Below are positions 2,587 through 31,031 of a stretch of DNA of 64,000 bases, piece by piece. Position 1 is the stretch's first letter, and the number at the start of each line of letters is the position of its first letter. The stretch is taken from the NCBI RefSeq assembly GCF_028693135.1, contig NZ_JAQUVZ010000009.1, positions 62,001 to 126,000 on the forward strand. The letters are read 5' to 3'. Below the pieces are notes generated by a model, which saw only the letters and a program-made list of their open reading frames with translations, had not been told where the DNA came from and made no database searches. Source of the stretch: Methanosarcina sp. (GTDB taxonomy: Archaea; Halobacteriota; Methanosarcinia; Methanosarcinales; Methanosarcinaceae). The translations under genes were made by a program, and so were the position numbers.

Positions 2587-3048
2587 GGGATCAGGGATGA
2601 TGGTTACCGTGAGATTCCTGGAACAAGATTAGCAGATAGTGAAGCCTCTATGTTCTGGGAATATCTATTCGAGGATCTGAAAGAAAGAGGGTTAAAAGGT
2701 GTCAAGTTAATCGTTTCTGATGGTCATAAAGGAATACAGAAAGCAGTCAGAGAGTCATTTATTGGATCAAGCTGGCAGATGTGTCACGTACATCTGACAA
2801 GACAAGTTCTCAAGAAGGTGCCAAAAAAGAAGCAGAAAGAAATGACTGAAAAGATAAAAGAAGCATTAGTAGATAGTCAGAAGTTGAATTACCTGATTAA
2901 GGAACTGGATGGTATGGGGTATAAAAACGCAGCTGATACCCTTGAAAGTTTTCAGTATGATGAGCACCCGCTCGTAACGGGCTTCAAAAAAATGAGAAGG
3001 AAATATATCAGAAGCAGCTTTTTAGGGATAAGCTCGAGGACGAATTGA
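2587..3048 (+). pseudogene. IS256 (mutator) family transposase fragment
   Basis: About 150 residues of the central part of an IS256 transposase. Diagnostic features are GIRDDGYREIPGTRLADSE, the second catalytic Asp region VKLIVSDGHKGIQKAVRE, and the C-x-x-H motif in WQMCHVHLTRQVL. The first catalytic Asp region and the C-terminal Glu region are missing, so it is truncated at both ends and cannot be active. It shares its frame with the zinc-ribbon remnant before it, so the junction near 2587 is a fusion of two unrelated elements. Past about 2995 a different frame reads RDKLEDELIFLKSIIFDP and stops at about 3078. Confidence 0.7.
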
Positions 3049-4561: not shown

Positions 4562-4816
4562 TCAAGCCCGGATCGGCCCTATTTCACTCCATGATTCCCT
4601 TGCATTTCCGGAAGAAATTTCGGTTATTTTAAAGTATGGCAGCCCCTTAACTGCCAGCTGGGCCATTGAGTACTCGAGATCTGGAGTAGGTTCCTTAATC
4701 TTGAGAGGGCTGGCTATGGCGTTGAGCAGTTCCGCAAGGTTGGGGCTGTTCGACTTCCAGATCCCATTACTCTGTGTTTCGGCTGTAAAGATTTTCCATT
4801 CTATTTTTACGGACAT
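4562..4816 (-). CDS. Small conserved-looking hypothetical protein (84 aa)
   Basis: An 84-residue soluble protein beginning MSVKIEWKIF. A strong GGGGAG ribosome site lies 7 bases before the ATG, the best evidence that this strand is the coding one; a longer open frame on the plus strand has no such support. No domain is recognised. The N-terminus looks like a beta strand and the middle like two helices. It stands alone, with a long AT-rich upstream region. Confidence 0.55.
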   Translation of the reverse strand: MSVKIEWKIFTAETQSNGIWKSNSPNLAELLNAIASPLKIKEPTPDLEYSMAQLAVKGLPYFKITEISSGNARESWSEIGPIRA

Positions 4817-5392
4817 TAGTATTCTCCCCTTAAAAAATGATTATTCAGTCGAGCCAGATGCTCAAAAAAAATAAATTATAAGTACTCAGTCTTAAGTATT
4901 TAAATAAGTTATTGTATATAACTTTCTATCATCGGTGTAATTCGGCTTTTCCCCTCCTTAAAAGCCTTAGATCGTCCACCGTTACATGACTGATGTTTTA
5001 AAGTTCCTAAACGTGAATATATGTGTGATACTTTCAACATCAAACTTTATAAATTATTAGATAGGTATATAATTATATTTAGACAAATAAGTCAAAATTT
5101 TACATATTGACGAATATCAATTATATAATACGATTTCAAATAAAGATAATAGAAAAAATTTTCCTTGATATGAATAAAAAAAGAAAAGTAGGACAATAGA
5201 AAAGTAGGACAATAGAAAAGTAGGACAATAGAAAAGTAGGACAATATAAATTGAGACAATGGATTTTATTATAATAGTATTTCGAGGAACCCCGGATTCA
5301 GCAAGTTGATTATAACCAATTTATACGCGTGAGACAAAGTGTGGAGGTTTTCGAAATTATCTTAAAAAAATTCCACATGCCGTTTTGCTGCC
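4817..5392. other. AT-rich gene-free region upstream of the small protein
   Basis: About 575 bp of AT-rich DNA containing the likely promoter of the 4562-4816 gene (TA-rich stretch near 4900) and the 16-bp tandem repeat at 5183-5246. No gene is seen. Confidence 0.5.
5183..5246. repeat. Four perfect copies of a 16-bp unit
   Basis: GAAAAGTAGGACAATA occurs four times head to tail without a mismatch (5183, 5199, 5215, 5231). A non-coding, recent expansion. Confidence 0.95.
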
Positions 5393-6205
5393 TCACAGAA
5401 AGCTCAGGAAATCCAGCACAATCTGATTAAATTCAGCAGGTTTTTCCATATTTGGCACGTGGGCGGTATCGGATATGACAACCTTTTTTGCTCCTTTAAT
5501 CTCGTTAGCAAGCAGGTCAGCAGCCCGCAGGATTTCAGGATTATCAAGAGAGCCAGCCATGACTAACGCAGGAACACTGATCTCCCCAAGTCGCCCGGCA
5601 GCCAGCGGATTGAGCGGATTAAGAGGATTGGCATCGGCTATGGCCCATGTTCCATTTTCGACCGGGATCCGGTTCATCTCAGCCGCACGTTGACGGACGT
5701 GAGGGTCGACCTGCTCAGACTGACGGAAAGTGCCATCGACCCAGAGAAAGACCTGCAGTTCACTTACACGTTTCAGGTCTCCCTGTTCGAAAGCCTGCAG
5801 CATCTCCAGAAGCTGAGATGGAGGGTCCCCTCTCATTTCAAAGCCCCCCGGAGTCCCGCTGACAACAATCAGCGACCGCACTATCTCAGGGTGCTCAAGA
5901 GTAAAATCAATGGCTGTTTCTCCCCCCATGGAGCATCCCAATATGTGTGCATGTTCAATACCGAGCTCCTGCAACAAGCGGTACAAATCCTTACGGCGGG
6001 AAACCGGCCCTGTTGCAGGATCGGATTTTCCGAACCCGCGCATATCAAAACGAAGAACCCTGTAATGCTGTGTAAAGACATTCCATTGCCCATCCCACAT
6101 GCGGCTGTCAACAAAACCCGCATGGATGAGCACAAGCACCTCGCCCTTTCCCTCAATTTCATAGTAGAGATTACAGTCTCCGATGTCAGCGTATCCGGCA
6201 GGCAT
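5393..6205 (-). CDS. Alpha/beta hydrolase
   Basis: A 270-residue alpha/beta hydrolase-fold enzyme of unknown substrate, cytoplasmic (no signal). The oxyanion-hole motif is LIHAG near residues 26-30, the nucleophile elbow is GCSMGG with Ser92, the acid is Asp221 in GSLDNPE, and the histidine is His249 in TAHVPNMEKP. Length and motif order match esterase/3-oxoadipate-enol-lactonase-like members. There is no partner gene. A PLNPLNPL stretch (residues 194-201) is a small in-frame duplication. Confidence 0.9.
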   Translation of the reverse strand: MPAGYADIGDCNLYYEIEGKGEVLVLIHAGFVDSRMWDGQWNVFTQHYRVLRFDMRGFGKSDPATGPVSRRKDLYRLLQELGIEHAHILGCSMGGETAIDFTLEHPEIVRSLIVVSGTPGGFEMRGDPPSQLLEMLQAFEQGDLKRVSELQVFLWVDGTFRQSEQVDPHVRQRAAEMNRIPVENGTWAIADANPLNPLNPLAAGRLGEISVPALVMAGSLDNPEILRAADLLANEIKGAKKVVISDTAHVPNMEKPAEFNQIVLDFLSFL

Positions 6206-6484: not shown

Positions 6485-8722
6485 TTAATTCTGGTCTTTC
6501 TCCTTTCTGATCCTTGCATATACCTTCCGAACAGATTTATTCAGCAGGTAATTCAGACTTTCTTTTGAGATCGGCTTTGATTTTTTAACTATCATTACCG
6601 GTTTTCGGGAATGCCTTGCAATCCTCTGTGATAGAGTCCCGAGCAAAGAAATCTTAAACCTCTCGCTCGAATCACCAATAATTGTCAGGTCGTAGCCGTT
6701 TGAAACTTCCAGTATGGCGTCCTCTATAGAGTATCTTTCGAGCAGTTTATAGCTTGCAGGTACCGAAGTTATCTTTGCGACCAGCCCTTCAAGTTCGGTG
6801 GAGATTTTTACCTTAGATTCCGGATCTTCATCGGGACTGATAATACTAATTATTCTAATTGATGCCCCGGCATTTACAGCAAGTTTTTTTGCCAGATAAA
6901 GACCGTGTATCGAATTATCTCTTCCATTATATGCTACAAGGATTTTCTTAATGCTGTCAGGCAGATGTCCTTTTAATAGGGCGATCTGGCTTTTTGAGGA
7001 CAGGAGAACATCATTTGTTACATCTCCGAGTGAGTAGTTAAACCCCTTTGATTCGTGCCAGCCCATAATAATTATGTCTGCCTTCTCAATTTCAGCCTGT
7101 TCAATAATTGAATTCGAGATTTCGTGGTCAAAAGCAAAGATAAATTCCCTTTTATTCCCGAATTTTGCAGGATAATGCTCAAAATCTTCCTGGAAACGGC
7201 AGTCCATTTCTATCTTTTTCTCGTGGTAAGCCTCCTGAGCTACCATTAAGGTTGTCTGGCGCGGGACTTCAATTATGTGCAGGCAAATTATCTCACTTCC
7301 CAGGAAATCTGCCAGCTTCAGAAGGTCTCGCTCATGCCCAGGATTGGAAACTGGAACAAGCACCCTGCCAACAGCGCTCGGTTCAATGCTCACTCTTTCG
7401 ACATTGTTTTCCAGCAGGTCAAACAGGTTATATTCTGGCATGGCTTTGCCTTTTCCATAGAACATGTACCAGCCGGCTCCGGTAAATATCATCAATACGA
7501 TAAACAGTAAAGGTAAACCCCCAAGAAGAGGCAGCAACAATACACTCCCGACCACCCCGAATATTTGCGTAAAAGGGAAAAAGGGGTCGCGAAATGTGGG
7601 TTCATATCCGGGTAAAGTCCGTTTTCGGAGGATGATTACTGCCATATTGAGCAGGATAAATATCAATATGTTAAAAGCCCCGCCAAGTCTTGCCAGCTGC
7701 TCTATGTTGAAAAAAAACAGAAGCGCAACCATTACAATTCCGGTGATCAGTATAGCATTGTGAGGAGTCTCATATTTTTTATGGATCGTAACAAACCATT
7801 CTGGCATCAGTGCATCTCTGCTCATTGCAAAAGGAAACCTGGAAGATGACAATATGGCGCCGTTAGCTGTTGAAAGCGTTGCAAGCAGGGCAGCAAAGGC
7901 AATGAAAAATTTTCCAGTATCTCCTGAAATCAGGCCTGCGATATCTGCCAGCGGAGTGACTGTTGTTACTGCCCCTTCAGGACCTGAAAATCCTACAACT
8001 ACTGCTATTATACCGACATAGAAGAGGGTTACTACAACCGCTGAAGCGATAAATGCCCTCGGCAAGTTCTTTGACGGATTTTTGACTTCCTCAGCGACCG
8101 CGGCAGCTTCTGCGAGTCCCAGGTAGGATATGAAAATAATCCCTGTTGTAGTAAATATTGACATTATCCCATGCGGGGCTACCGGGAAAAAACTATCCGG
8201 CTTAACAAAGATAGATACTTTTCCTATGAATAGAACCAGTATTACCAGTAAAACAACAACAGTAATGTTCTGCAGGGAACCACTGCTTTTTGCACCGCGG
8301 TAATTAATTACTAACAGAAGCACTCCTGTAACAGCTGCAACTAGATAGAGAGGCAGAGGGTAAAAGACCTGAGTATACTGTGCAAGCCCTATAAGGGCAA
8401 ACGTACCTTTGAATATCAGTGCCAGCCAGGAACCGAGCCCGATTACTGTACCAAATGCGGCTCCCATTGTCCTGCTGATATAGTAATAGCTGCCGCCTGC
8501 TACAGGCATGCCTGTTGCCAGCTCTGACATGCTGATTGCTGTAGCTATTGAAATGAGTCCGCCCAGCAAAAATGCGATTATTGCTCCTGGACCTGCATTT
8601 GCTACGGCCAACCCCGGAAGAATGAATATTCCGGCTCCGATCATTGTTCCGGTGCCTATTGCAAAAGTAGAGAAAAAACCCAGGCTGCGTCCCAGCCTTT
8701 CCGTTGTTTCAACTGGTGCCAT
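6485..8722 (-). CDS. APC-family amino-acid permease with C-terminal universal-stress domains
   Basis: A 745-residue membrane transporter. Residues about 10-430 form an APC-superfamily permease with about 12 hydrophobic helices. The first holds the family signature GTMIGAGIFILPG, followed by VAGGSYYYISRTMG. Residues about 440-730 are two tandem USP (UspA-like) domains, with phosphate/ATP-loop sequences such as ILVAYNGRDNS and the C-terminal SLLGTLSQRIARHSRKPVMIV. This permease-USP fusion is known in archaea; the USP part probably senses nucleotide or stress state. Substrate unknown. The start lacks a clear ribosome site. The region upstream holds fossil CRISPR repeats. Confidence 0.9.
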   Translation of the reverse strand: MAPVETTERLGRSLGFFSTFAIGTGTMIGAGIFILPGLAVANAGPGAIIAFLLGGLISIATAISMSELATGMPVAGGSYYYISRTMGAAFGTVIGLGSWLALIFKGTFALIGLAQYTQVFYPLPLYLVAAVTGVLLLVINYRGAKSSGSLQNITVVVLLVILVLFIGKVSIFVKPDSFFPVAPHGIMSIFTTTGIIFISYLGLAEAAAVAEEVKNPSKNLPRAFIASAVVVTLFYVGIIAVVVGFSGPEGAVTTVTPLADIAGLISGDTGKFFIAFAALLATLSTANGAILSSSRFPFAMSRDALMPEWFVTIHKKYETPHNAILITGIVMVALLFFFNIEQLARLGGAFNILIFILLNMAVIILRKRTLPGYEPTFRDPFFPFTQIFGVVGSVLLLPLLGGLPLLFIVLMIFTGAGWYMFYGKGKAMPEYNLFDLLENNVERVSIEPSAVGRVLVPVSNPGHERDLLKLADFLGSEIICLHIIEVPRQTTLMVAQEAYHEKKIEMDCRFQEDFEHYPAKFGNKREFIFAFDHEISNSIIEQAEIEKADIIIMGWHESKGFNYSLGDVTNDVLLSSKSQIALLKGHLPDSIKKILVAYNGRDNSIHGLYLAKKLAVNAGASIRIISIISPDEDPESKVKISTELEGLVAKITSVPASYKLLERYSIEDAILEVSNGYDLTIIGDSSERFKISLLGTLSQRIARHSRKPVMIVKKSKPISKESLNYLLNKSVRKVYARIRKEKDQN

Positions 8723-8847
8723 CTATATCCCCGTCTTTCCAGGACTCTAGAACCGACAAATCAGTCCCTGTATAAACCCTTAATTTATAATTATTCAGAT
8801 AATGTTGATCATAGATCTCCGCACTATGCATCCGGGCAGGCAACGAG

Positions 8848-9103
8848 ACTTCAAATCCCTGCTTAATGGATACTGCTTTCGAATAAAAATCTCCGAAAAA
8901 CGTCATATTCCTCCTGCAGTACGGTTTCAAGCTCTGTTTTAGCGGGTTATGTATTACAATTATTTGTAGAAAGAGGTATCCTGTTTCGGGTCAAACAGTT
9001 TCAATTCAGTCTTAATGGTTCTTGCTTTCGAATAGTACATATAATTATCCGTCGGGGATATATTTAAGTAAAAATTCCTGTTTAATGGGCATCGCTTTCG
9101 AAG
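8848..9103 (-). CRISPR. Fossil CRISPR mini-array, four decayed repeats
   Basis: Four segments align by eye with the 37-bp repeat of the active array: 8848-8884 (about 27/37), 8924-8960 (about 24/37), 8998-9033 (about 29/37, 1-bp deletion) and 9068-9103 (about 23/37). Start-to-start distances are 76, 74 and 70 bp, the period of the active array (73). Three of the four share private changes (TTAATGG, CTTTCGAA), so they decayed together or come from an older repeat variant. A fifth copy near 9138 is doubtful. Fossil spacers would be 8885-8923, 8961-8997 and 9034-9067. Confidence 0.7.
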
Positions 9104-9225
9104 CATTATTTTCGAACCGTTATTTTCGAACCGTTATTTTCAAAGCTTATGATTTATCTCCGAAGGCGGGAAGACCCTTCTTCAAAAATCTGAGCCGTCA
9201 GACAAAGATGTTAGGGAGTAGGAGT

Positions 9226-9408
9226 TCATTGGTAGTTCATTGTTTTTACCGTTCTTCCCTTGATGATTCCAGGTACTGTTATGGCTTTCCAGAGTTTTTC
9301 TGCTTCCCTGAATTTTCTTTTGTTACCGGGTGAACCGTAAAAAATCTGGCTACATCCGTTTCCTGTACAAACCGAAAAATAACCAGAGTATTGTTTTACG
9401 AGCTCGTC
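9226..9408 (-). pseudogene. Possible short coding remnant
   Basis: A minus-strand frame of about 60 codons without a start reads plausibly as protein (e.g. YSGYFSVCTGNGCSQIFYGS, then REAEKLWKAITVPGIIKGRT) between in-frame stops. No family is recognised. It may be the tail of a lost gene. The surrounding 9104-9590 stretch shows nothing else. Confidence 0.2.
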
Positions 9409-9590: not shown

Positions 9591-9938
9591 TCAGAGGTTA
9601 TAGTATTCTATGACACACTCTCTAAATAATTCTTTGGATTTTTTAAACCCTTCATGTATTCCATCTAAATGGTCCCGGGAATAATTTGGTTTTTCTTTAA
9701 CTGCAATCGCGTCTATCATAAGATTAAACCTTTCCTGCAGGCTCTGTATTTTTGCAGCTGGACCTTCACCTGAAGCGGGGAAAATAAATTTATCCACATT
9801 TTCCTCAAAAGTATCTTTGGCGATCTCCAAACCTTCATTTATTCCTTCTTTAAAATCTGAATAAGCCCGGTTATCCTTATTTCTCTCGATCAAATCACTA
9901 AATTTTCTAACTGTTTTAGTAATTATTATTTGATCCAA
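9591..9938 (-). CDS. Hypothetical helical protein (115 aa)
   Basis: A 115-residue, charged, mostly helical cytoplasmic protein starting at TTG, chosen because a GGAGGGG ribosome site lies 7 bases upstream. Two similar halves are visible: FKEGINEGLEIAKDTFEEN (residues about 29-47) and LDGIHEGFKKSKELFREC (about 92-109), suggesting an internal duplication of a G-I-(N/H)-E-G helix motif. No known domain. It is flanked on both sides by fossil CRISPR repeats. Confidence 0.6.
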   Translation of the reverse strand: MDQIIITKTVRKFSDLIERNKDNRAYSDFKEGINEGLEIAKDTFEENVDKFIFPASGEGPAAKIQSLQERFNLMIDAIAVKEKPNYSRDHLDGIHEGFKKSKELFRECVIEYYNL

Positions 9939-9991: not shown

Positions 9992-10106
9992 GTCAGGATC
10001 CCTATTTTAGCAGATCTTGCTTATGAATAATGAATTTAGTTATTATTATCACTACTTTATATGTACTTTCGTTTCAGTCCTGGTTTTAGCGAATTTGCTT
10101 GCGGAT
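9992..10106 (-). CRISPR. Two fossil CRISPR repeats
   Basis: 9992-10028 matches the active repeat at about 26/37 and 10071-10106 at about 31/37 with one deletion; starts are 79 bp apart. Both keep the TTTTAG centre and the TTGCTT..G.AT end. The fossil spacer is 10029-10070. Confidence 0.65.
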
Positions 10107-10142
10107 ATAATAATCCAGGATCTTCATCATTCTCTATGGGAA

Positions 10143-10232
10143 TCTTCGTCGTTCTCTATGGATAAGGTGATTTTCAATTCAAGACCGAATTGATTTTTAT
10201 GAGGATATCCATACAAAACAACGAAAAGCCAT
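10143..10232 (+). repeat. 90-bp dispersed repeat, copy 2 (inverted partner at 1651-1740)
   Basis: The reverse complement of this segment matches 1651-1740 at about 86 percent by eye. It lies just beyond the stop of the secreted repeat protein. The function of the repeat is unknown. Confidence 0.6.
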
Positions 10233-10261
10233 AAAAAGAAAAAAAGAAAAGGGAATAAAGA

Positions 10262-11284
10262 TTACCAATAAATTTTATAATCTTTCACAGTTCCCATGCT
10301 ATCAAAGTATGTATTCGAGCAGAATAAAGGAACTCTTATATACTGTTTTCCGGCACTTACTGACACTGTTGTGTCGTAGCATTCCCCGCCTTCCGGAGTG
10401 CCAGTGCAATCAATAAACACAAGCCCCTTATCAGACGTTTGGAACGCATTGCAGGCATGATTGATGCCATTCAACGAAACCCACCCTGCTTTAATCCCTG
10501 CGTTCTCAGCGTTGTTATGGACGGTTTCCGCAAAATCTCCGCAGGCATAAGTTTGGGTATATCGCTTCTGATCGGTGGTGTCTTTTTGGATAAATGAAAC
10601 TAATTGAGCATATGTCGGGTCTTTTGCCTGGTTGCTGTTAATAAGGGCTATTCTCTGCCCGTCAGCTCCGACCCACCAGGTGTTACCTTCATGCGGGTTT
10701 ACTGTTGTTAGTTCAGGAGTTGCAGGTTCGACAGGAGTAACCGGATCTTCTGGGGTTATAGGGTCTTCAGGAGTTGCAGGTTCGACAGGAGTAACCGGAT
10801 CTTCTGGGGTTATAGGGTCTTCGGGAGGTGCAGGTTCGACAGGAGTAATCGGATCTTCTGGAGTTAGAGGGTCTTCAGGAGGTGCAGGTTCGACAGGAGT
10901 AACCGGATCTTCTGGAGTTAGAGGGTCTTCAGGAGGTGCAGGTTCGACAGGAGTAACCGGCTCTTCTGGGATTATAGGGTCTTCAGGAATTGCAGGTTCG
11001 ACAGGAGAAACCGGCTCTTCGGGGATTATAGGGTCTTCAGGAGTTACAGGTTTATCCCATTTTTTAGAATCCCTGTGATTCCTCGATTCTTTAGAAGTTC
11101 TATAATCCTTTGAATGCGATACGCCCTGATCTTCATGATTCAAGTATTTGTCTCGCTGATCAGATACACAGGAATTCGAGGACTGCCCTTTGTCATAATG
11201 ATCCCCGTTTGCATGTGCGGCCACGGCGGGCATTGTTACTACCATCAAAACAAATAGAGTAATAAATATTTTGTATATGTTCAT
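10262..11284 (-). CDS. Secreted Pro/Glu-repeat protein with transglutaminase-like C-terminal domain
   Basis: A 340-residue exported protein. Residues 1-25 form a signal peptide ending near VAAHA. A hydrophilic His/Ser/Asp segment follows. Residues about 83-190 consist of an 18-residue repeat built from PEDPVTPVEPA-type units. The C-terminal ~150 residues form a compact domain with a likely Cys-His-Asp triad: Cys248 in YACGDFAE, His276 in INHACNAF and Asp292 in VFIDCTG. This is transglutaminase/NlpC-like in order, but the exact family is not certain. The repeat is probably an extended cell-surface stalk. It stands alone, with fossil CRISPR repeats on both sides. Confidence 0.75.
   Translation of the reverse strand: MNIYKIFITLFVLMVVTMPAVAAHANGDHYDKGQSSNSCVSDQRDKYLNHEDQGVSHSKDYRTSKESRNHRDSKKWDKPVTPEDPIIPEEPVSPVEPAIPEDPIIPEEPVTPVEPAPPEDPLTPEDPVTPVEPAPPEDPLTPEDPITPVEPAPPEDPITPEDPVTPVEPATPEDPITPEDPVTPVEPATPELTTVNPHEGNTWWVGADGQRIALINSNQAKDPTYAQLVSFIQKDTTDQKRYTQTYACGDFAETVHNNAENAGIKAGWVSLNGINHACNAFQTSDKGLVFIDCTGTPEGGECYDTTVSVSAGKQYIRVPLFCSNTYFDSMGTVKDYKIYW
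10716..11039. repeat. 54-bp coding tandem repeat, six copies
   Basis: Six head-to-tail 54-bp units (starts 10716, 10770, 10824, 10878, 10932, 10986) encode the 18-residue Pro/Glu repeat of the secreted protein. The first two units are almost identical; the outer ones have diverged. The frame is preserved, so copy number can change without breaking the gene. Confidence 0.9.
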
Positions 11285-11621
11285 ATTTAGCTCCTATTTA
11301 ATGAAAAGATGTGGCTCGTCGCTTTTGTGAGAGGGTTAAAAATACTTTTTTAGTTTGGAGATGACCCTGCCAAAAAAAGAAACATCAAGCTTGAATATGA
11401 TTTTCAACAACAAATGTTTTTAAATTTTACATATGTTAGGTCAATATTTAGGAAATGAATGTAAATTACCAATTCGAAACAGCGAATAGCCAAAGGTTTT
11501 CAACTCTTGTTTGGGGAGGATTACTGGCAAATCATATGTATTTTTTATTGGATGTAATAATATATAATACTTTGTGAATATATTATAATATTTATGATAT
11601 ATATTTACATGATTAAAATAA

Positions 11622-11897
11622 TTACTAACACTTCATTTAGTGGATAATGATAGCGAATCATTGATTGAGCAGAAGGTGAAAACTTAGTTTCCAAATATTA
11701 AGTATATATAAATATTTTTACAAATATACGATCGCGATAGATGCCAATTTTGAAATCCAGTAAAAAGGATTATGTGCTTACATTTAAGCGAATAATTCAA
11801 CATCATGAGACGTTTATATGCCTAAAAATAAGGAACTTCGGGTGAAAGAAAGATCTTATGGTTTCAATTCGTGTTTTAGTGGATCTTGCTCACAAAA
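11622..11897 (-). CRISPR. Two fossil CRISPR repeats in an AT-rich gap
   Basis: 11861-11897 matches the active repeat at about 32/37 (its last seven bases have decayed); 11622-11658 matches at about 25/37, mostly in the 3' half (TTTAGTGGAT and GCGAAT kept). They are not in period with each other, so sequence has been lost or gained between them. The rest of the 11285-12000 gap is AT-rich with no gene; a short plus-strand frame at 11818 only reads through the repeat. Confidence 0.65.
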
Positions 11898-13327: not shown

Positions 13328-13439
13328 TTTTCAATCCCTGTTTCAATGGATCTTGATCTCGAATATAAAAAAGATTTCTATTTGTTCACGCATCGCCCGT
13401 TTGTTTCAACCCGTGTTTTAGTGGACCTTACCCGGGAAT
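13328..13439 (-). CRISPR. Two fossil CRISPR repeats in period
   Basis: 13328-13364 and 13403-13439 each match the active repeat at about 31/37, with starts 75 bp apart, leaving a 38-bp fossil spacer (13365-13402). They fill the gap between the acyltransferase and SRPBCC genes. Confidence 0.8.
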
Positions 13440-14094: not shown

Positions 14095-14131
14095 GTTACA
14101 ATCCCTTTTTTAGTGGAACTAGCTCGCGAAT
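14095..14131 (-). CRISPR. Single fossil CRISPR repeat abutting a promoter
   Basis: Matches the active repeat at about 32/37, with the last ten bases (GCTCGCGAAT) intact. It ends four bases before the TATA-like stretch of the cupin gene, so the end of the repeat occupies the place where the BRE element would be. Confidence 0.8.
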
Positions 14132-14135
14132 GATT

Positions 14136-14143
14136 ATATATAT
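14136..14143 (+). promoter_or_regulatory. TATA box of the cupin gene
   Basis: TATATATA lies 22-29 bp upstream of the cupin ATG at 14165. Archaeal transcription begins about 25 bp after the TATA box, so the mRNA would be leaderless or nearly so; no ribosome site is seen before the ATG. Confidence 0.55.
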
Positions 14144-14164
14144 AATTAATATTAATTTAGAAAT

Positions 14165-14563
14165 ATGAAAGGGTTTTCTATTAATATCGAAGAAGCGACT
14201 CTGGAAAATAAGAATTTCCGCAAGGTACTTTACACCTCAAAGCACAGCCAGCTGGTCCTTATGAGCCTCAAGCCCGGGGAAGAAATCGGGATGGAAGTCC
14301 ATGAGGAAAACGACCAGTTTTTCCGTTTTGAAGCAGGCCAGGGGAAGTGCATAATTGACGGCAACGAACATGAACTCGGGGACGGGGTTGCAGTGGTAGT
14401 GCCCGCCGGCGCGCAGCACAATGTCATCAACACTTCAAAAACAGAGGACCTGAAACTCTACACGATCTATTCCCCGGCGCATCACAAGGACGGAATCGTG
14501 CGCGCCACGAAGGAAGAAGCCGAAGCCAATGAAGCGGAATTCGACGGAGTGACCACGGAATAA
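14165..14563 (+). CDS. Cupin-domain protein
   Basis: A 132-residue single-domain cupin, cytoplasmic. Metal-site motif 1 appears as GMEVHEENDQFFRFEAGQG (His and Glu ligands) and motif 2 as VVVPAGAQHNVIN. Size and arrangement match small cupin_2 proteins, which bind a divalent metal and serve as isomerases, dioxygenases or binding proteins. The C-terminus is an acidic helix rich in Glu/Ala. Transcribed alone from a promoter that abuts a fossil CRISPR repeat; a hairpin terminator follows 50 bp after the stop. Confidence 0.88.
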   Translation: MKGFSINIEEATLENKNFRKVLYTSKHSQLVLMSLKPGEEIGMEVHEENDQFFRFEAGQGKCIIDGNEHELGDGVAVVVPAGAQHNVINTSKTEDLKLYTIYSPAHHKDGIVRATKEEAEANEAEFDGVTTE

Positions 14564-14615
14564 GCTGATAAGTTCATAAGAAACGGTAATCGATTAAGCA
14601 TTGACAATGCAAAAT

Positions 14616-14645
14616 AAAAACGCTTTATTTTCAGAAAGCGTTTTT
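14616..14645. terminator. Hairpin terminator between convergent genes
   Basis: AAAAACGCTTT and AAAGCGTTTTT form an 11-bp stem around an 8-base loop, with T runs on either strand. It can end transcription of both the cupin gene (plus) and the converging membrane gene (minus). Confidence 0.7.
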
Positions 14646-14725
14646 ACTTTTGTATCTTTTTTATCTTTTTTGTTCCTTTACGGCATGTAAAAATTAAAAA
14701 CTGTATAAGAATTTTTTTCACCGAT

Positions 14726-15091
14726 TTATTTCTGAATCACTTCTTTACGCCAGCCGACAGCAAGAGGAAGAACAAAAGTCAAAGCGTAATACAGGTAAAC
14801 ATCCAGCTTATAATATCCGTCCGCCGGCTTGAAAGCTTTTAAAAGGAAAAAATAATCAAAAACAATTGCTATCAAAACCCAGACGACCGCCAGAAACGCA
14901 TAATAACGAAATGAATCTGCTTTGATTTTCTTTAATAACACCCAGAGCGTGACGATCGTCCCGACCGGCATAATAATCCAGCCGATTATGGAAGTTGGAA
15001 TAATTGAAAAAAGCATAATTCCTAGAGCATACTCGATAAGCCAGAGAATAAATCCCCAGCCGAGCGCATCTTTATAAAATTGATTTATCAC
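14726..15091 (-). CDS. Small integral membrane protein (four helices)
   Basis: A 121-residue hydrophobic protein with four predicted helices at about residues 10-30, 37-55, 65-83 and 98-115. Polar signatures are YKDALGWGF at the start and GWIIMPVGT in helix 2. Similar proteins are found in both archaea and bacteria and have no known function. It stands alone and converges on the cupin gene. Confidence 0.65.
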   Translation of the reverse strand: MINQFYKDALGWGFILWLIEYALGIMLFSIIPTSIIGWIIMPVGTIVTLWVLLKKIKADSFRYYAFLAVVWVLIAIVFDYFFLLKAFKPADGYYKLDVYLYYALTFVLPLAVGWRKEVIQK

Positions 15092-15333
15092 AAAAATACC
15101 CCTTTAATTTTTATTGTTCGACCCTGTTAATTATATCAATTTTGGTTAAGAATACACGAATGTATCTATATAAAAATAAATTAACAGAACAAAGCATAGA
15201 AGGAGACAAAATTAGCGAAATGCTGAAATTGCAGAAACCAGAAAAATTATAATTTTGAACTGGATTCGGCTTTGCAAAAATCTTCGATGGAGAGATGCCG
15301 GAGCTTCCGACTTTCCAGAAGACGGTGATTGTA

Positions 15334-15370
15334 GTTTCTATCCTTGTTTTAGAGAACCTTGCTCGGGAAT
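15334..15370 (-). CRISPR. Single fossil CRISPR repeat
   Basis: Matches the active repeat at about 32/37, with differences scattered along the unit. No convincing neighbours one period away. It lies about 240 bp upstream of the small membrane gene. Confidence 0.75.
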
Positions 15371-15643
15371 GTATATCGACCGATATTTCCCGGGTATTTC
15401 TGCAACTGGAATTCAAAATGCCCTGTGTGGATATAAACCTGTAGGACCATATATACAAAGATATTACTTTTAATTGTCAAAGTTTATATACTAATCCGAC
15501 ATATACATACATAGAATCCGACGTATGTATACAGGGCAATCTAGTAGTTGAATTAGTTCGTCGGGTTCGTTCGTAAAAAAACATATCCATATGCGGGTGA
15601 TGTTGTGTGTTTCAACCACATGACACCACTCCTCCATCCTTAA

Positions 15644-15828
15644 TATCTAATTCTCATTTTGACGGATGTTTCTCGCAAATATTGAAGTACAGGTTATTGT
15701 GTTGGTTTTTCTGGCAATTTGGCTTCGTCTTTCATAATAGATCTGCTCAAGAATAATTTTTATTGCACTTGTTTGGAAAAAACCACCTGATGTTTCCGTC
15801 CTTTTTTTAGTGGTTCTTGTTCGCGAAT
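15644..15828 (-). CRISPR. Three fossil CRISPR repeats in period, two of them very worn
   Basis: 15792-15828 matches the active repeat at about 32/37. One period before, 15717-15754 keeps AGATC.TGCTC..GAAT, and 15644-15680 keeps GGAT.TT.CTCGC.AAT (about 24/37). Starts are 73 and 75 bp apart; the two weak copies are accepted mainly because of this register. The rest of the 1.3-kb gap 15092-16376 is AT-rich, with a possible short coding remnant at about 15830-15962 (ending KKAINHFC) that I cannot assign. Confidence 0.55.
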
Positions 15829-16240
15829 AATGGCCTTTTGATTAATCAATGTTTTAACTCTGAGTTTCTCTTAAAATTTAGTATTAGGAAATATAAAATA
15901 CATATTCCTGATGATGTTCTTGGTATTACGGCATTAAAAAAAGCCATAAATCATTTCTGCTAAATAAGCAAAAAGCGCACCTAAATCGATAGCAAAAAGC
16001 ATGTCAATATTCACCTCTTATTAGCTGCTCTTTTTCTATGAAGTGTTTTAGGAACTTTGGATATTTAATTGGTTTTGCATGTTAAAATGTTACAATGTGG
16101 GGGTAGACATTACCAAAACTTATACCATGGCTTCTTATTTCCTGGCGTTTCGATGGCATTCTAATTGATGAGCGTTTGAACCTGCAGGAAGTAGTTATTA
16201 TACGTTATTTTAAGATTCTATTTATTCTGGCTGTTCTTAT

Positions 16241-16277
16241 GTTTCCATCTTTGTTTTAGTGGATCTTGATCGCGAAT
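16241..16277 (-). CRISPR. Single well-preserved fossil CRISPR repeat
   Basis: Matches the active repeat at about 34/37; the middle ten bases are intact. It lies between the decayed region and the 3' end of the UbiA gene. Confidence 0.85.
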
Positions 16278-16285
16278 CCACCATT

Positions 16286-16323
16286 GGGGCAGAATCCCCG
16301 AAAGTGCGGGCTAATTCCCGCAC
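16286..16323 (-). terminator. Pair of GC hairpins beyond the UbiA stop
   Basis: GTGCGGG/CCCGCAC (7-bp stem, 6-base loop, 16304-16323) and GGGG/CCCC (6-base loop, 16286-16299) lie 54-90 bp past the stop of the minus-strand UbiA gene. They may form a 3' end structure. There is no T run, so confidence is low. Confidence 0.35.
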
Positions 16324-16376
16324 CTGTCCGTTGCACATGGTGTTAAGAGGCTTAGAATCAAATTGCTACCAGACTT

Positions 16377-17246
16377 TCACCTGACCATTCGAATGAGTAT
16401 GAAAATTAAGAATGCCGCCAATCCACTCAGGTAGATCCAGCGAATATAAATTCGCCGATTTACTATTCTCGAGTCTAGCAATTTACTCGTTGAGTACAGA
16501 ATAACTACATCCATCAGTAAAATGGAAAACAGATAAATCCACTCTAACCAGCCCAACAAAAACGGCAAGCTACTTGCAACAATCACCAGTAAGAAAATCG
16601 CTCCGCTGATTTTCAACGCGTTTTCGCGGCCAAGTACCAGAGCTAAGGAACGGGACCCTGCCTGACGATCGCCTTCGACATCCATACCATCTGCCGCAAT
16701 TTCTTCCCCTAAATTTATAAGCGACACTATGATTGCGAAAAACCAGACTATTATTTCAAATGGTTTACCTACTACTATACCACCAAAAACAAAAGTCATA
16801 CCAACCGAAAAGCTAACCATCAGATTTCCAATCAAACCAGCCTTTTTGAACCGCCAATTGTAAAGAAAACCCACTGCCCAGACTAAAATAACTACTAACA
16901 AAGCCTCCAGGCTTATCAGGTAGCCTATGATAAATCCAAGCATTGTCACTACAATGGAGAGTAAAACAACATCTTGCTCAGTAACAAGCCCTGCCGGGAG
17001 CGGCCTTTCCGGCGCGTTTATTCTGTCACTTTCGATATCAAAATAATCATTCAGGATCAGAGCAGCAGCCGAAATAAAAAAAATGCTTAGAAACCCCAAT
17101 ACAATTTCGGTCATTGTGGGGAGTTCACCTAATGCCAATAATTCCCCTAATATCACGCACACCCCCGCAATAAGTGGCAGCTCAAAACGGAATAAGCGAA
17201 ACAGACCCAGCATTCTTGTTCTAAACATAACAGTATTTCCTCTCAC
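16377..17246 (-). CDS. UbiA-family prenyltransferase, digeranylgeranylglyceryl phosphate synthase-like
   Basis: A 289-residue polytopic membrane enzyme with about eight to nine helices. Both aspartate-rich motifs of the UbiA superfamily are present: NDYFDIESDRINAPERP (residues 66-82) and DGMDVEGDRQAGSRSLA (about 187-202). These bind Mg2+-prenyl diphosphate. The motif wording and size resemble archaeal DGGGP synthase, which adds the second geranylgeranyl chain to the membrane lipid, but a role in another prenylated lipid or quinone is possible. The start at 17246 is the best supported by length; the track of fossil CRISPR repeats continues 43 bp upstream. Confidence 0.8.
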   Translation of the reverse strand: MRGNTVMFRTRMLGLFRLFRFELPLIAGVCVILGELLALGELPTMTEIVLGFLSIFFISAAALILNDYFDIESDRINAPERPLPAGLVTEQDVVLLSIVVTMLGFIIGYLISLEALLVVILVWAVGFLYNWRFKKAGLIGNLMVSFSVGMTFVFGGIVVGKPFEIIVWFFAIIVSLINLGEEIAADGMDVEGDRQAGSRSLALVLGRENALKISGAIFLLVIVASSLPFLLGWLEWIYLFSILLMDVVILYSTSKLLDSRIVNRRIYIRWIYLSGLAAFLIFILIRMVR

Positions 17247-17288
17247 AATTGACTCAATATTTGCAGCCCAGCTATTAAGATACGGAGG

Positions 17289-17325
17289 GTTTCAATCCTT
17301 TTTTTGGTGGATCTTGCTTACAAGC
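17289..17325 (-). CRISPR. Single fossil CRISPR repeat with decayed end
   Basis: Matches the active repeat at about 30/37: the first ten bases and GGATCTTGCT are intact, the last seven mostly lost. The rest of the 17247-17561 gap holds short direct repeats (ATATG(T/C)CAG.TTTTCATACT, TTCATTTGTTA) and no gene. Confidence 0.75.
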
Positions 17326-17561
17326 GAACGGCCTACACTTGATAAAAAAGAGATAAATGTTGGGGACGGTATTTGTGTTGAGGAAGGTCTTTGAGAAGAT
17401 TACGAAATAATCCCTGGCACAATTGGTATATATCACTATTTTCTACTCATTTTTCTATAATGTTGACATCATTTGGAGTGAATACACCAAATATGTCAGA
17501 TTTTCATACTAAATATGCCAGGTTTTCATACTTCATTTGTTACTACTTCATTTGTTAGACT

Positions 17562-18908
17562 TCATTTTTTCATGCTTTTTAACATAATCCCGACTACTGC
17601 CAGAGATACAACCACGATCACGACACTCAGTACGGTATTTTTGTCCTTCTTAGACTCTGTTTCTTCGGGATTTCCCAGTTCGCCCACGGATCTGCTTTCA
17701 GCAGAAATCTGAGTGCTTTCTTCCGGGGTCTTCTGCGAGTCATTGCCGGTAATCGCAAAAGATGCATAGCCAGGAACTTCTGAAGTGAAGTACAGATACT
17801 TATCAGTCTGTCCTGTCAGATTGGCTGGCAGCTGCTCCCAGGTTTGTTCTTTGTACCTGTTAAGCACTATAGAAGCAGGATCGATATGCTCTTCCTGGAC
17901 CCATGCCTTTTCTACCCTGAAACTCAGGACAGGATTTTCTATTTTCTTTGAGGTTGAATATCCGGCGGTTCCTACCCACACATTAAAGGATTTGTAGACC
18001 TCTCCATCAGGCAGGTCTGATACAAGTACGGACTTGCCCTTTAATTGCTCAACAGTGGTTGTGGTCTTGCCTACACTTTCAACCGAATCAAAGTCCACAT
18101 ACACAACACAGGTTGCACCCTTTGCAAATTCAAACCTGACAGCCTCACCGTTTGTAATGAATACCTTTGAAAGCTCCCTTACTTCAACATTATTTGCAGG
18201 CTCAGGAGACACGCTGTCGCCACCTCCACTACTGCTCCTGCTGCTGCTTCCACTGTCATCAGGGGGAGTTACAGGGGACTCCTCAGGAGTTGGGGTTGGG
18301 GTTGGTTCAGGAGTTAGATCTATTGGTTCTGTTGGATCTGTAAGATTAGTCGAATCTGCTGGATCAGTCGAATCTGCTGGATCTGCTGGATCTGCAGTAT
18401 CTTCTGTATCTGCTGGATCAGCTGGATCTGCAGTATCTTCTGTATCTGCTGGATCAGCTGGATCTGCAGTATCTTCTGTATCTGCTGGATCAGCTGGATC
18501 TGCAGTATCTTCGGTATCTGCTGGATCAGCTGGATCTGCAGTATCTTCGGTATCTGCTGGATCTGCTGGATCTGCAGTATCTTCGGTATCTGCTGGATCA
18601 GCTGGATCTGCAGTATCTTCTGTATCTGCTGGATCTACTGGATCTTCTGTATCTGCTGGATCTGCTGGATCAGAAGTTGGCTCAGGGGTAGGTTCAAGAG
18701 CAGGATCCTGGTGCTTCTCCAGAGGCACCAGAGGCTCATCAGCAGAAAAAAGTGCAGCAGACGTACTGCCAGAAATAACCTGAAGTATAAGAGCTACTGT
18801 AAATAAAATGAAGAATATCCTTTTTGCAGTCAGAATAACACCCCTGTGTTTTTTAATTCCGTTATTGCCCACACTATATAAATTAATATTTATTTTCTCC
18901 TGATTCAA
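17562..18908 (-). CDS. PGF-pre-PGF domain surface protein with Asp-Pro-Ala repeats
   Basis: A 448-residue exported and anchored protein. A hydrophobic signal/anchor spans about residues 28-52. Residues about 70-180 are the acidic repeat DPADPADTEDTA, followed by Pro/Thr and Ser/Gly linkers. Residues about 235-400 match the PGF-pre-PGF domain of Methanosarcina envelope proteins (SFRVEKAWVQEEHIDPASI, LNRYKEQTWEQLPANL, YLYFTSEVPGYASFAITG). A C-terminal hydrophobic helix near 425-443 with a basic KSMKK tail is a membrane anchor. The partner is unknown; it is probably an S-layer-associated stalk protein. Fossil CRISPR repeats flank the gene. Confidence 0.85.
   Translation of the reverse strand: MNQEKININLYSVGNNGIKKHRGVILTAKRIFFILFTVALILQVISGSTSAALFSADEPLVPLEKHQDPALEPTPEPTSDPADPADTEDPVDPADTEDTADPADPADTEDTADPADPADTEDTADPADPADTEDTADPADPADTEDTADPADPADTEDTADPADPADTEDTADPADPADSTDPADSTNLTDPTEPIDLTPEPTPTPTPEESPVTPPDDSGSSSRSSSGGGDSVSPEPANNVEVRELSKVFITNGEAVRFEFAKGATCVVYVDFDSVESVGKTTTTVEQLKGKSVLVSDLPDGEVYKSFNVWVGTAGYSTSKKIENPVLSFRVEKAWVQEEHIDPASIVLNRYKEQTWEQLPANLTGQTDKYLYFTSEVPGYASFAITGNDSQKTPEESTQISAESRSVGELGNPEETESKKDKNTVLSVVIVVVSLAVVGIMLKSMKK
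18388..18639. repeat. 36-bp coding tandem repeat, seven copies
   Basis: Units start at 18388 and then every 36 bp to 18604, nearly identical, encoding the 12-residue acidic Asp-Pro-Ala repeat of the surface protein. Degenerate units flank both ends. The period is a multiple of three, so the frame survives copy-number change. Confidence 0.92.
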
Positions 18909-18980
18909 CCCTTAATTAAGTCACTGGAATTTGCACTCTCGGCTGTGTGTCCAGGATAGACTCATTTTTATTGTACCGTT

Positions 18981-19162
18981 TTTTGTCACAGATTGAGAGG
19001 TTTTTTGCTTTCGAATCCGAACTCATATCATGTATGGATGTTTTTAGACCGCTGTTTCAATCCCTGTTTTAGTGGATCTTGCTCGCGAATACCGCTTAGA
19101 TTGACAAAGTTGACGGAAAAATTAAGTTTCAATCTCTGACGAGTTTTCAAACCAGTTGCAAT
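18981..19162 (-). CRISPR. Three fossil CRISPR repeats in period, next to the active array
   Basis: 19054-19090 matches the active repeat at 36/37. 18981-19017 keeps only the 3' end (TTGCT..CGAAT). 19126-19162 keeps only the 5' end (GTTTCAATC). Starts are 73 and 72 bp apart, leaving fossil spacers at 19018-19053 (36 bp) and 19091-19125 (35 bp). This block is separated from the active array by the toxin-antitoxin module. Confidence 0.85.
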
Positions 19163-19802: not shown

Positions 19803-22800
19803 GTTTTAATCCTTGTTTTAGTGGATCTTGCTCGCGAATATTTTTGCCCTGAACAAAAGCAGTCAGCCACGTCTGTTTCAATCCTTGTTTTAGTGGATCT
19901 TGCTCGCGAATTCATCATATTATTCCGAGATCTAAGGGGGGGAGTGAGTTTCAATCCTTGTTTTAGTGGATCTTGCTCGCGAATTGCGCCATATACACAT
20001 ATTTACAAGTGTCATAACTGGTTTCAATCCTTGTTTTAGTGGATCTTGCTCGCGAATTTTACAGATCGTACTCATTTATTATTTCCTCTTTAGTTTCAAT
20101 CCTTGTTTTAGTGGATCTTGCTCGCGAATAACTCCCTGAAAGTACGGGGGCTTTGTCACTAGCTGTAGTTTCAATCCTTGTTTTAGTGGATCTTGCTCGC
20201 GAATTTTTGAACTCCTCAAATAGTTTTATATATGTCTACTTATATACATTATAGTTTCAATCCTTGTTTTAGTGGATCTTGCTCGCGAATTTTAGAGAGG
20301 GGATTCGGAAGAGATATGCGGTACATTGTTTCAATCCTTGTTTTAGTGGATCTTGCTCGCGAATAACTAGAGGTAACCCCTGCTATATTTAGCGAATATG
20401 GTTTCAATCCTTGTTTTAGTGGATCTTGCTCGCGAATAAAAAGGAGTTGAAATGAATGGAACTTGAAGATCTGTTTCAATCCTTGTTTTAGTGGATCTTG
20501 CTCGCGAATGGTATAGAATCCATGTCAACGTCACACAAAAATACGTTTCAATCCTTGTTTTAGTGGATCTTGCTCGCGAATTCAGAATCACCCTGCCCTA
20601 ATTCAATATCATAACTCAGTTTCAATCCTTGTTTTAGTGGATCTTGCTCGCGAATTTGCAGCATATTTACGTACAAGAAACCATGATACAGTTTCAATCC
20701 TTGTTTTAGTGGATCTTGCTCGCGAATAATAGATCAGCTGTCCGGACTTGGCTTTTCTGCAACGTTTCAATCCTTGTTTTAGTGGATCTTGCTCGCGAAT
20801 ATTCGCGAGTACAAATTTTAAGTGCTGCCAGAATGTGTTTCAATCCTTGTTTTAGTGGATCTTGCTCGCGAATGGCTTCCGGCTTGTTAGTTCGGAACAA
20901 CCTAATTGTGTTTCAATCCTTGTTTTAGTGGATCTTGCTCGCGAATCGGAATATGAAGATAGGTTACCGATGAGTACGGGGGGTTTCAATCCTTGTTTTA
21001 GTGGATCTTGCTCGCGAATCTGGGAAGTTGTCAACGGTCTTAATGTTGGAAATGATGTTTCAATCCTTGTTTTAGTGGATCTTGCTCGCGAATTCGACCT
21101 GAAAATTAACGGTGTCCGGGTCGAAAGTTTCAATCCTTGTTTTAGTGGATCTTGCTCGCGAATAGGGCAAGCCCGGAAAGGTTAGAAGCCGTATTAAAAT
21201 GTTTCAATCCTTGTTTTAGTGGATCTTGCTCGCGAATTAGGTCATTCCTTCAATTGCGTCAGTGTTCTTTGAAGTTTCAATCCTTGTTTTAGTGGATCTT
21301 GCTCGCGAATAGCATGGGTTATGCCCAAAAGGAACGAACACTGGTACGTTTCAATCCTTGTTTTAGTGGATCTTGCTCGCGAATTTTATTGTAGTAGTAA
21401 TTACGTATGTAAGTAGATAGGTGTTTCAATCCTTGTTTTAGTGGATCTTGCTCGCGAATCCGAAGAGTCCGGCATGTAGCATGATGGTCTGGAAAGTTTC
21501 AATCCTTGTTTTAGTGGATCTTGCTCGCGAATTTTTAGTCCCCCGGTTCTTTTTTGATTGCCCAAAGAGTTTCAATCCTTGTTTTAGTGGATCTTGCTCG
21601 CGAATCCCCCTGTTATAAGATTTATTTAGACTTCCTTTTTAGGTTTCAATCCTTGTTTTAGTGGATCTTGCTCGCGAATCGCGTCTGCCCTGCTACGGAT
21701 AGGATCATCCACTATGTTTCAATCCTTGTTTTAGTGGATCTTGCTCGCGAATGCGACAATGACATTATTGGTGTAGCCTGATGTTCTTGTTTCAATCCTT
21801 GTTTTAGTGGATCTTGCTCGCGAATAAAAAATATTATACCGGCAAGTGCGGTATATGGAAGGTTTCAATCCTTGTTTTAGTGGATCTTGCTCGCGAATGC
21901 TGTTCAGGAGTGTAGTTTTTGAGCCCTTCGGTTTCAATCCTTGTTTTAGTGGATCTTGCTCGCGAATAATACCAAGGTTATTGAAATACTACGCAACTGG
22001 CGAAGTTTCAATCCTTGTTTTAGTGGATCTTGCTCGCGAATATTTGTGGGCATTGTGTGTCTGACTGTCGTCCTAATATAGTTTCAATCCTTGTTTTAGT
22101 GGATCTTGCTCGCGAATTTTTTCAAGTCTTTTTGTTTCTGTAGCAGACATTTAGTTTCAATCCTTGTTTTAGTGGATCTTGCTCGCGAATTGAGGAAAAC
22201 AAAGATAACCCTAAGTACGTTGAAAGTTTCAATCCTTGTTTTAGTGGATCTTGCTCGCGAATCTAAATTACTAATTTCATACCATCCTTCATAATTTTGT
22301 TTCAATCCTTGTTTTAGTGGATCTTGCTCGCGAATAATATCAGTGGGAAAGAATATGAACATTTCCTAAAATGTTTCAATCCTTGTTTTAGTGGATCTTG
22401 CTCGCGAATTCTGATCCTATGTTGGAATTGCTTACTGAAGATGGGGTTTCAATCCTTGTTTTAGTGGATCTTGCTCGCGAATTAACATACCATGTTGCTG
22501 TTGCTTCCTTTGAATAATGTTTCAATCCTTGTTTTAGTGGATCTTGCTCGCGAATATCAATATCTATTACAGTCCATGATATGTCGTCGCGGTTTCAATC
22601 CTTGTTTTAGTGGATCTTGCTCGCGAATATGGGCAGTTTGTACCCAATTCGATGAAGTATGGGAGTTTCAATCCTTGTTTTAGTGGATCTTGCTCGCGAA
22701 TTGTAGTAGAAAACCAACACGCTGAATCCTTCATAAGTTTCAATCCTTGTTTTAGTGGATCTTGCTCGCGAATATCGCCCCAGAAGCTGCGCTGGCAATG

Positions 22801-25037
22801 ACATCATTGAGTTTCAATCCTTGTTTTAGTGGATCTTGCTCGCGAATCTGGTCGTTAAGGCCTGCACCCTCCAGAGTATATTGTTTCAATCCTTGTTTTA
22901 GTGGATCTTGCTCGCGAATCATCCGAGAATAGATGATTTGCTTTGTGACGATTGGGGTTTCAATCCTTGTTTTAGTGGATCTTGCTCGCGAATATGGTCC
23001 TAAAACGCTGAAGTTTCAGTTAGTTCAGTAGTTTCAATCCTTGTTTTAGTGGATCTTGCTCGCGAATCATTCATCTCCAATAGTATATGAGTATATTATC
23101 TGTGGTTTCAATCCTTGTTTTAGTGGATCTTGCTCGCGAATAATGAGAGACATTGAGAGAACATCTGAGAAGTGTAGTTTCAATCCTTGTTTTAGTGGAT
23201 CTTGCTCGCGAATGAAAGCCGGTTTTTGGGCACATTGTATGAAAAATAAGTTTCAATCCTTGTTTTAGTGGATCTTGCTCGCGAATCTGAGTTTTATACA
23301 AATCATACTGCGCTCGATTATTGTTTCAATCCTTGTTTTAGTGGATCTTGCTCGCGAATCGGACCCGTTAAACCAATCATCCCCTTTTTTGTAGTTTCAA
23401 TCCTTGTTTTAGTGGATCTTGCTCGCGAATATTATTCCGAGTCACATGGAAAAATGACTTAGAGGCTAGTTTCAATCCTTGTTTTAGTGGATCTTGCTCG
23501 CGAATGTTAAAAAGACAGTTGTGGAAGAGCCTTCACCAAGTTTCAATCCTTGTTTTAGTGGATCTTGCTCGCGAATCAAACTTTCCCATTTCCTTGGGAA
23601 TCATGTCTACCAGTTTCAATCCTTGTTTTAGTGGATCTTGCTCGCGAATTATGTTTACCTGCCGATTACCCTACCCTAATTTGGTTTCAATCCTTGTTTT
23701 AGTGGATCTTGCTCGCGAATGCCTTTGATGAATACACATCTGGATACATGAACCACATGTTTCAATCCTTGTTTTAGTGGATCTTGCTCGCGAATTAGGA
23801 AAACAGCTCGGAATAGATGCAGAAACGCCTTGTTTCAATCCTTGTTTTAGTGGATCTTGCTCGCGAATAATTTGAAGTTCTATTGAAACCCTCCGACTCC
23901 ACAAGTTTCAATCCTTGTTTTAGTGGATCTTGCTCGCGAATACCCATTGCATACATATAAGTATTACGTATTTGTATAGTTTCAATCCTTGTTTTAGTGG
24001 ATCTTGCTCGCGAATGTATGTATATAGGGCAGATGGTAGGCATCAGGGTTTTGTTTCAATCCTTGTTTTAGTGGATCTTGCTCGCGAATCTATATATATG
24101 AATTTACATATGCGCAACTACTATAGTTTCAATCCTTGTTTTAGTGGATCTTGCTCGCGAATATTGTTACTCAGTGTCGAGTTGGTGTTCTGAACAGCGT
24201 TTCAATCCTTGTTTTAGTGGATCTTGCTCGCGAATCCTAAAAAAACAATCCTACAGTATGAAAACAGGATGTTTCAATCCTTGTTTTAGTGGATCTTGCT
24301 CGCGAATATCGGGCAGAACAGTTTAAAATATATTTTAAGGAGTGTTTCAATCCTTGTTTTAGTGGATCTTGCTCGCGAATGGGAGAAATAGCGGGAGAAT
24401 GAACCGGAATCTGCAGGTTTCAATCCTTGTTTTAGTGGATCTTGCTCGCGAATAACGATGGATTCACAGACGGTTCGGATTTCTTGTTCAGTTTCAATCC
24501 TTGTTTTAGTGGATCTTGCTCGCGAATCGTAATAATGACGTTCATATGAATTTGCGATCATCAGTTTCAATCCTTGTTTTAGTGGATCTTGCTCGCGAAT
24601 TATATAATTGATCCTGAGAAATACAAAGCGTTTTAGTTTCAATCCTTGTTTTAGTGGATCTTGCTCGCGAATCGTCTATCAGCTTTTCGGCTTCCACGGA
24701 TTCACATCGTTTCAATCCTTGTTTTAGTGGATCTTGCTCGCGAATGCGGGGAAAATGAACTGCCATACGGATGGTTATGTGTGTTTCAATCCTTGTTTTA
24801 GTGGATCTTGCTCGCGAATTCAAAACACGATACGCCATACTCAATATTGTTAGAGGTTTCAATCCTTGTTTTAGTGGATCTTGCTCGCGAATTTCGTTGG
24901 TTGGCACTACAATTGATCCCACTCTCCGTTTCAATCCTTGTTTTAGTGGATCTTGCTCGCGAATCCAGATTAAATATTTTCTGATGGAATATATTTTCTA
25001 GTTTCAATCCTTGTTTTAGTGGATCTTGCTCGCGAAT
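19803..25037 (-). CRISPR. Active CRISPR array: 72 repeats, 71 spacers, type I-B
   Basis: The repeat is 37 bp, beginning GTTTCAATCC and ending GCTCGCGAAT as written on the plus strand. On the transcribed minus strand its end is ATTGAAAC, the 8-nt tag that becomes the 5' handle of type I-B crRNAs in Methanosarcina. I count 72 copies, the first at 19803-19839 and the last at 25001-25037. Spacers are 32-39 bp, except 20205-20253 (49 bp). All copies appear identical except the one at 19803, which has one change. That change at the far end and the cas operon plus AT-rich leader beyond 25037 both place the leader at the high-coordinate end. No spacer could be matched to anything in this window by eye. 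Confidence 0.98.
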
Positions 25038-25857: not shown

Positions 25858-25872
25858 ATGAACCTCAAAAAC

Positions 25873-26290
<418 letters not shown>

Positions 26291-31022: not shown

Positions 31023-31031
31023 GTTCTTAAC

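Follow-up and report, generated by a model that had tools for sequence, protein, structure and literature searches.

A degenerate CRISPR array beside an amino-acid permease gene across Methanosarcina, and the possible reuse of one repeat-spacer junction as the permease promoter

CRISPR arrays are usually read as short-lived memories. Four decayed repeat units upstream of a permease gene in a Methanosarcina genome (G000) raise the question of whether they are the remains of such an array, how old they are, and why they are still there. They lie at positions 8848-9103 of a 64,000-nt stretch of contig NZ_JAQUVZ010000009.1, referred to here as the window. A first-pass annotation, made from the letters alone, had described them as a fossil mini-array, and its units are where it placed them (8848, 8924, 8998 and 9068), with spacings of 76, 74 and 70 bp. 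The permease and the parts of the block are as follows.

6485-8722, minus strand: APC-type amino-acid permease with a C-terminal universal-stress-protein domain (Pfam AA_permease_2, 7e-45; Usp, 1e-20), the conserved neighbor of the fossil
8848-8884, minus strand: R1, fossil repeat (25/37), its S1-facing half constrained
8885-8923, minus strand: S1, fossil spacer of 39 bp, strongly conserved within the G000 clade
8924-8960, minus strand: R2, fossil repeat (27/37), drifting
8961-8997, minus strand: S2, fossil spacer of 37 bp, near neutral
8998-9033, minus strand: R3, fossil repeat with one deletion; its other-clade orthologue in G003 matches at 30/37
9034-9067, minus strand: S3, fossil spacer of 34 bp, first 20 nt ultra-conserved, remainder drifting
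9068-9103, minus strand: R4, fossil repeat, drifting; orthologues in G021, G008, G007 and G009

Compared without gaps to the closest living repeat of the genus, R1 to R4 match at 25, 27, 25 and 20 of 37 positions, in keeping with the type I-B repeat family. The third and fourth units are each 36 bp long with one deletion apiece, and their best ungapped registers start at 8997 and 9067. R4 is clearer in orthologues, for example in G021 (GTTTCAATTCACATTTAATGGGCACTGCTTTCGAAT). With only the repeats of the genus's intact arrays as reference, the four-unit chain scores 97/148, while the best chain at comparable spacing among 94,228 other window positions reaches 81 on the plus strand and 75 on the minus strand (background mean 56.8, sd 4.3). 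This was the statistical scan on which the annotation had staked its proposal, and it excludes chance for the four-unit chain. The intervening segments, announced as candidate spacers of 34-39 bp, measure 39, 37 and 34 bp and fit the regular spacing of the intact array in the window (range 32-49 bp, median 36). Since the repeats are far from identical, at only 54-73% identity, the block is a relic and not a functional array. That it is a fossil CRISPR array we regard as almost certain.

The block is not isolated, which the description of it as a mini-array had missed. It is the permease-side end of an 11-kb trail of solo repeats on one strand that reaches the trailer end of an intact, cas-linked array on the same strand:

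9992-10107, minus strand: two fossil repeats (9992 and 10071) and one fossil spacer; the pair has orthologues in G011 and G010
10071-11897, minus strand: repeat-bounded gene cassette with an ORF at 10262-11284, flanked by fossil repeats 10071 and 11861; absent in G008
13328-13439, minus strand: fossil repeats 13328 and 13403
14095-19090, minus strand: solo fossil repeats 14095, 15334, 15644, 15792, 16241, 17289 and 19054, among ordinary genes
19803-25037, minus strand: intact type I-B CRISPR array of 72 repeats (Rfam CRISPR-DR7, minus strand), its low-coordinate end being the trailer (old) end
25150-33904, minus strand: type I-B cas operon with cas4, cas1, cas6, cas3, cas5, cas7 and cas8b (PADLOC)

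The intact array is built from the repeat GTTTCAATCCTTGTTTTAGTGGATCTTGCTCGCGAAT, present in 71 exact copies among its 72 repeats. A scan of the window outside this array found 16 repeat matches of at least 22/37, all on the plus strand between 8848 and 19090 and none elsewhere. Besides the members given above, the trail contains a repeat at 11622; those at 11861, 16241, 17289 and 19054 pass the Rfam gathering score. Genes between the trail repeats are ordinary ones, including an acyltransferase, a polyketide-cyclase-like gene, a cupin and a UbiA prenyltransferase. In 17 genomes that have the permease locus, forward matches of at least 24/37 along the trails number 136, compared with 3 on the opposite strand and, in controls with the reversed repeat, 0 and 3.

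Several other sequences in and around the trails were recorded. A match to CRISPR-DR60 (Rfam, 30.4 bits, below the gathering score) lies on the plus strand at 19126-19162, 36 bp past repeat 19054. At 9591-9938 there is a 115-aa ORF without a Pfam match, and many relatives carry related DNA two or three times in their CRISPR trails. Outside the window, G000 has a second array region with about 35 intact repeats (G000:C22:5087-7677) and a run at G000:C22:1068-1901 that matches only the first 23-28 nt of the repeat and is possibly of a different repeat type. The G008 trail has, at 4608-5751 from the permease and inside the array span, about 17 regularly spaced repeats that match the living consensus at only 27/37; they are perhaps another version of the repeat, or part of an array in a different register. 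A dispersed element of about 77 bp (gatttatctccgaaggcggg...ttcattg) at 9152-9228 is one of 8 copies on both strands of its own genome, with further copies in G008, G010, G011, G015 and G023. The window also holds a HEARO RNA (48599-48818, minus strand, 98 bits) and a fragment of a Mutator-family transposase (2650-3048).

The decay of the trail and its breakpoints indicate how it may have formed. Likeness to living repeats increases with distance from the permease: the mean Spearman coefficient over 12 genomes is 0.40, a value as high in 0 of 1000 permutations, and fossils nearer than 450 bp to the permease average 26.8 of 37 versus 29.9 for those farther away. Not every single genome shows the gradient; it is absent or reversed in G010 and G028. 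In a comparison of six genomes, 27 of 77 indel breakpoints fall within 50 bp of a fossil repeat, against 5.0 +/- 2.1 expected. Both patterns are as expected for an old array end broken up by insertions and by recombination between repeats. Two junctions illustrate the latter. In G000 a gene stands between repeats 10071 and 11861, and in G008 there is one hybrid repeat whose left flank is that of the first and whose right flank is that of the second. Likewise, the segment 13403-14095 with the cyclase gene is missing in G010 and G011, where the cupin-side repeat directly adjoins the acyltransferase side. Judged from these alignments, both junctions look like the product that recombination between imperfect repeats would leave. 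Fossil spacers can also be common to species: 13365-13402 matches one in G021, and another is held in common by G010 and G011.

These observations suggest that the type I-B array now occupying 19803-25037 has its oldest part, the trailer-side end, in this block. Incoming units would join at the leader end, which by the presumed polarity lies near 25038 beside cas4 and cas1, so that the first-stored units would have stayed beside the permease. Gene insertions, followed by repeat-repeat recombination, would then have split the old units from the working array, and the units cut off would have decayed into a trail of solo repeats that is better kept nearer the living array. The four permease-side units may have been retained because the permease relies on part of their sequence.

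The age of the block was approached through its orthologues. Permease orthologues in Methanosarcina are 76-93% identical. About 15 Methanosarcina genomes have an orthologue of the block upstream of this permease, and the block sits at the same place in most examined relatives of the genus that retain the permease; this genus-wide extent, too, had escaped the first-pass annotation. The upstream DNA (8723-9113) is 82% identical in G021 and 77-79% in G007, G008, G010 and G011, and is still recognizable in G009, G025 and the clade of G003, G004, G005, G019, G028 and G030. In the permease tree this clade is separate from the G000 clade, and at 4-fold sites it is only about 50-56% identical to G000. 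The early-branching MAG L101, which groups with KYL-1 outside both clades, carries only one repeat (31/37) and, after it, an S3-like element; KYL-1 retains a truncated R1, and the Methanomethylovorans permease orthologue has no repeat upstream. The genome L105 was left out of the dating because its branch in the permease tree was distorted, probably by a frame problem. Orthology in both clades, the L101 repeat, the KYL-1 R1 and the lack of a repeat in Methanomethylovorans together place the block, R1 and R3 included, before the split of the two main permease clades sampled, as far as sequence comparison can date it. By the same comparison, the array probably stood beside the permease before L101 and KYL-1 branched off. 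In G009 and G030, short tandem duplications derived from R2 have enlarged the R2-S2 stretch independently in the two species.

Changes per site in the block were compared with those at permease 4-fold sites on the same tree (2.15 changes/site). The first 20 nt of S3 have changed at 0.40 per site (p=8e-8), S1 at 1.14 (p=3.5e-5) and R1 at 1.22 (p=2e-4). Within the G000 clade, S1 shows 0.38 changes/site versus 1.15 at 4-fold sites (p=1e-6), and the constraint on R1 and S1 is specific to this clade. R2, R4 and the second half of S3 are no slower than 4-fold sites, S2 is marginally slower (p=0.04), and R3 as a whole gives p=0.015. On these rates most of the block drifts neutrally, with R1/S1 and a 25-mer at the R3/S3 junction under purifying selection:

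9026-9050, minus strand: 25-mer GGATAATTATATGTACTATTCGAAA, in which the last 8 nt of R3 are followed by the first 17 nt of S3; a proposed permease core promoter

On the permease strand, the pattern GGATANNTATATGTACTATTYGAAA represents S3 joined to the last 8 nt of R3. The 25-mer occurs without mismatch, as one copy per genome, in all 13 genomes that have both the permease and the junction. Where the permease is lost or damaged, it is altered: G006, in which the block is recognizable and no permease lies within the surrounding 10 kb, has 2 mismatches; G029, with only 33 permease residues left, has 3; and in G014, with a broken permease, the 25-mer is gone. G025, G023/KYL-1 and UBA9310 (L105) have the permease without the 25-mer, and their upstream DNA is rearranged. 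The 25-mer contains a TATA-like TTATATGTA, conserved 304-425 bp upstream of the permease. The first-pass annotation could not have seen that purifying selection acts on parts of this fossil, or that the presence of one part follows that of the permease.

The R3/S3 junction, with the TATA-like GGATAATTATATGTAC and the repeat-derived TATTCGAAA, may act as the core promoter of the permease, and R1/S1 would then lie in the permease 5' leader. From its conservation and its co-occurrence with the gene, we think it somewhat probable that the 25-mer has become this promoter. The fuller proposition, that a repeat-spacer junction older than the clade split was captured as core promoter and leader, and that host regulation thereby preserves very old array units, we hold to be evenly balanced. 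A simpler reading takes the block to be a fossil only, and attributes its conservation to slow drift together with an ordinary promoter located there by coincidence. It would suit the neutral-looking evolution of R2, R4 and the second half of S3, and very nearly that of S2. We consider it rather unlikely, since the 25-mer, invariant in both clades, includes the last 8 nt of R3, and R1 and S1 are constrained as well. At the other extreme, the block could be a chance pattern or a set of non-CRISPR regulatory repeats of the permease. It does sit in a conserved regulatory region, but scans of strand and period and the trail to the living array refute this idea, and we give it practically no weight.

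For the constraint on R1/S1 three explanations were put to the test, namely a small ORF, an RNA structure and a CreA-like guide; all three are weak. A small ORF read on the minus strand from near 8906 (MTFFGDFYSKA...) has a GGAGG-ATG start in 6 of 7 genomes of the clade, but it is absent in G010 and in the other clade, and its length and C-terminus vary, the DNA being conserved and not the codons. It was rejected as a conserved protein, and as the cause of the conservation it is improbable. A conserved leader RNA structure was rejected as well: of 47 pairs over 4 sequences, none had a compensatory change. R2/R1 with S1 might instead be the source of a crRNA-like RNA guiding Cascade to a promoter of the host, in the manner of CreTA. 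Constraint does extend over S1, over the half of R1 that faces S1 and over R2 on its handle side, and degenerate ectopic repeats are typical of CreA (PMC9458426). However, within the window the first 9 nt of S1 (crRNA sense) have no second occurrence and no seed match to an adjacent promoter beside a PAM was found, and genome matches are at control level, with 2 other sites for the 11-nt seed against 3 for a reversed-pattern control. The hairpin-forming half of R2 is degraded, and the block lies 16 kb from the cas operon; a guide of this kind is thus very improbable. As a separate candidate, S3 as an old CRISPR leader was rejected by eye, as the present leader after 25037 is unlike S3 and R4 lies beyond S3. 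Taken as a whole, the explanation by a trailer-end fossil with reuse at the permease promoter seems to us highly probable.

Two further proposals of the first-pass annotation concern the origin of repeats and spacers. It had seen private motifs common to three units as a hint of an older repeat variant, and TTAATGG and CTTTCGAA are indeed present in R1, R3 and R4. Each motif has counterparts in intact arrays: among the matches listed, G012 has TTTCGAAT and CTTTCGAA in its intact array, and G004, G006 and G007 have AATGG in theirs, together with CTCTCGAAT or CTCACGAAT, but no intact array among them combines both. R3 orthologues of the other clade have AGTGG or AGTGA, so that AATGG in R3 is not clearly ancestral and a single older variant is not demonstrated. 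That the spacers are records of ancient infections follows from the way arrays grow, but no protospacer was found. The fossil spacers had no match in phage and plasmid collections by distant blastn, and no exact 19-21-mer match in IMG/VR. Spacers of the intact array gave only chance-level matches in the phage set, so the result for the fossil spacers says little.

Ordinary CRISPR arrays are known for degenerate terminal repeats and conserved trailer-end spacers. As in ordinary trailer ends, the old units here decay and are common to related genomes. Unlike those, they are scattered between ordinary genes along 11 kb, have orthologues in species whose 4-fold sites are about 50% identical, and are in part under selection. 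CreTA of haloarchaea is a precedent for degenerate repeats outside an array that retain a function, in its CreA component (PMC9458426), whereas the part retained here resembles promoter DNA and not a guide RNA, and no seed target was found for S1. The type I-B locus of M. mazei, on the minus strand and with the CARF protein MM_0565, resembles the present one in subtype, in strand and in a CARF-type regulator beside the cas genes; trailer-side relics are not described in the available part of that account (PMC7465815). A literature search covering papers outside subscription journals turned up no description of a trail of this kind. Since old units survive at orthologous positions, the age of an array, its turnover and its losses by repeat-repeat recombination become measurable by comparing species. 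If the promoter reading is true, a former immune spacer is now host regulatory DNA, and if the capture reading is true, the block is the bottom of a layered CRISPR record common to many species. The block is a real, genus-wide CRISPR fossil that extends the known decay of trailer ends; what it adds to the known systems is orthology across species, a stratified trail and, likely, a repeat-spacer junction reused as a promoter.
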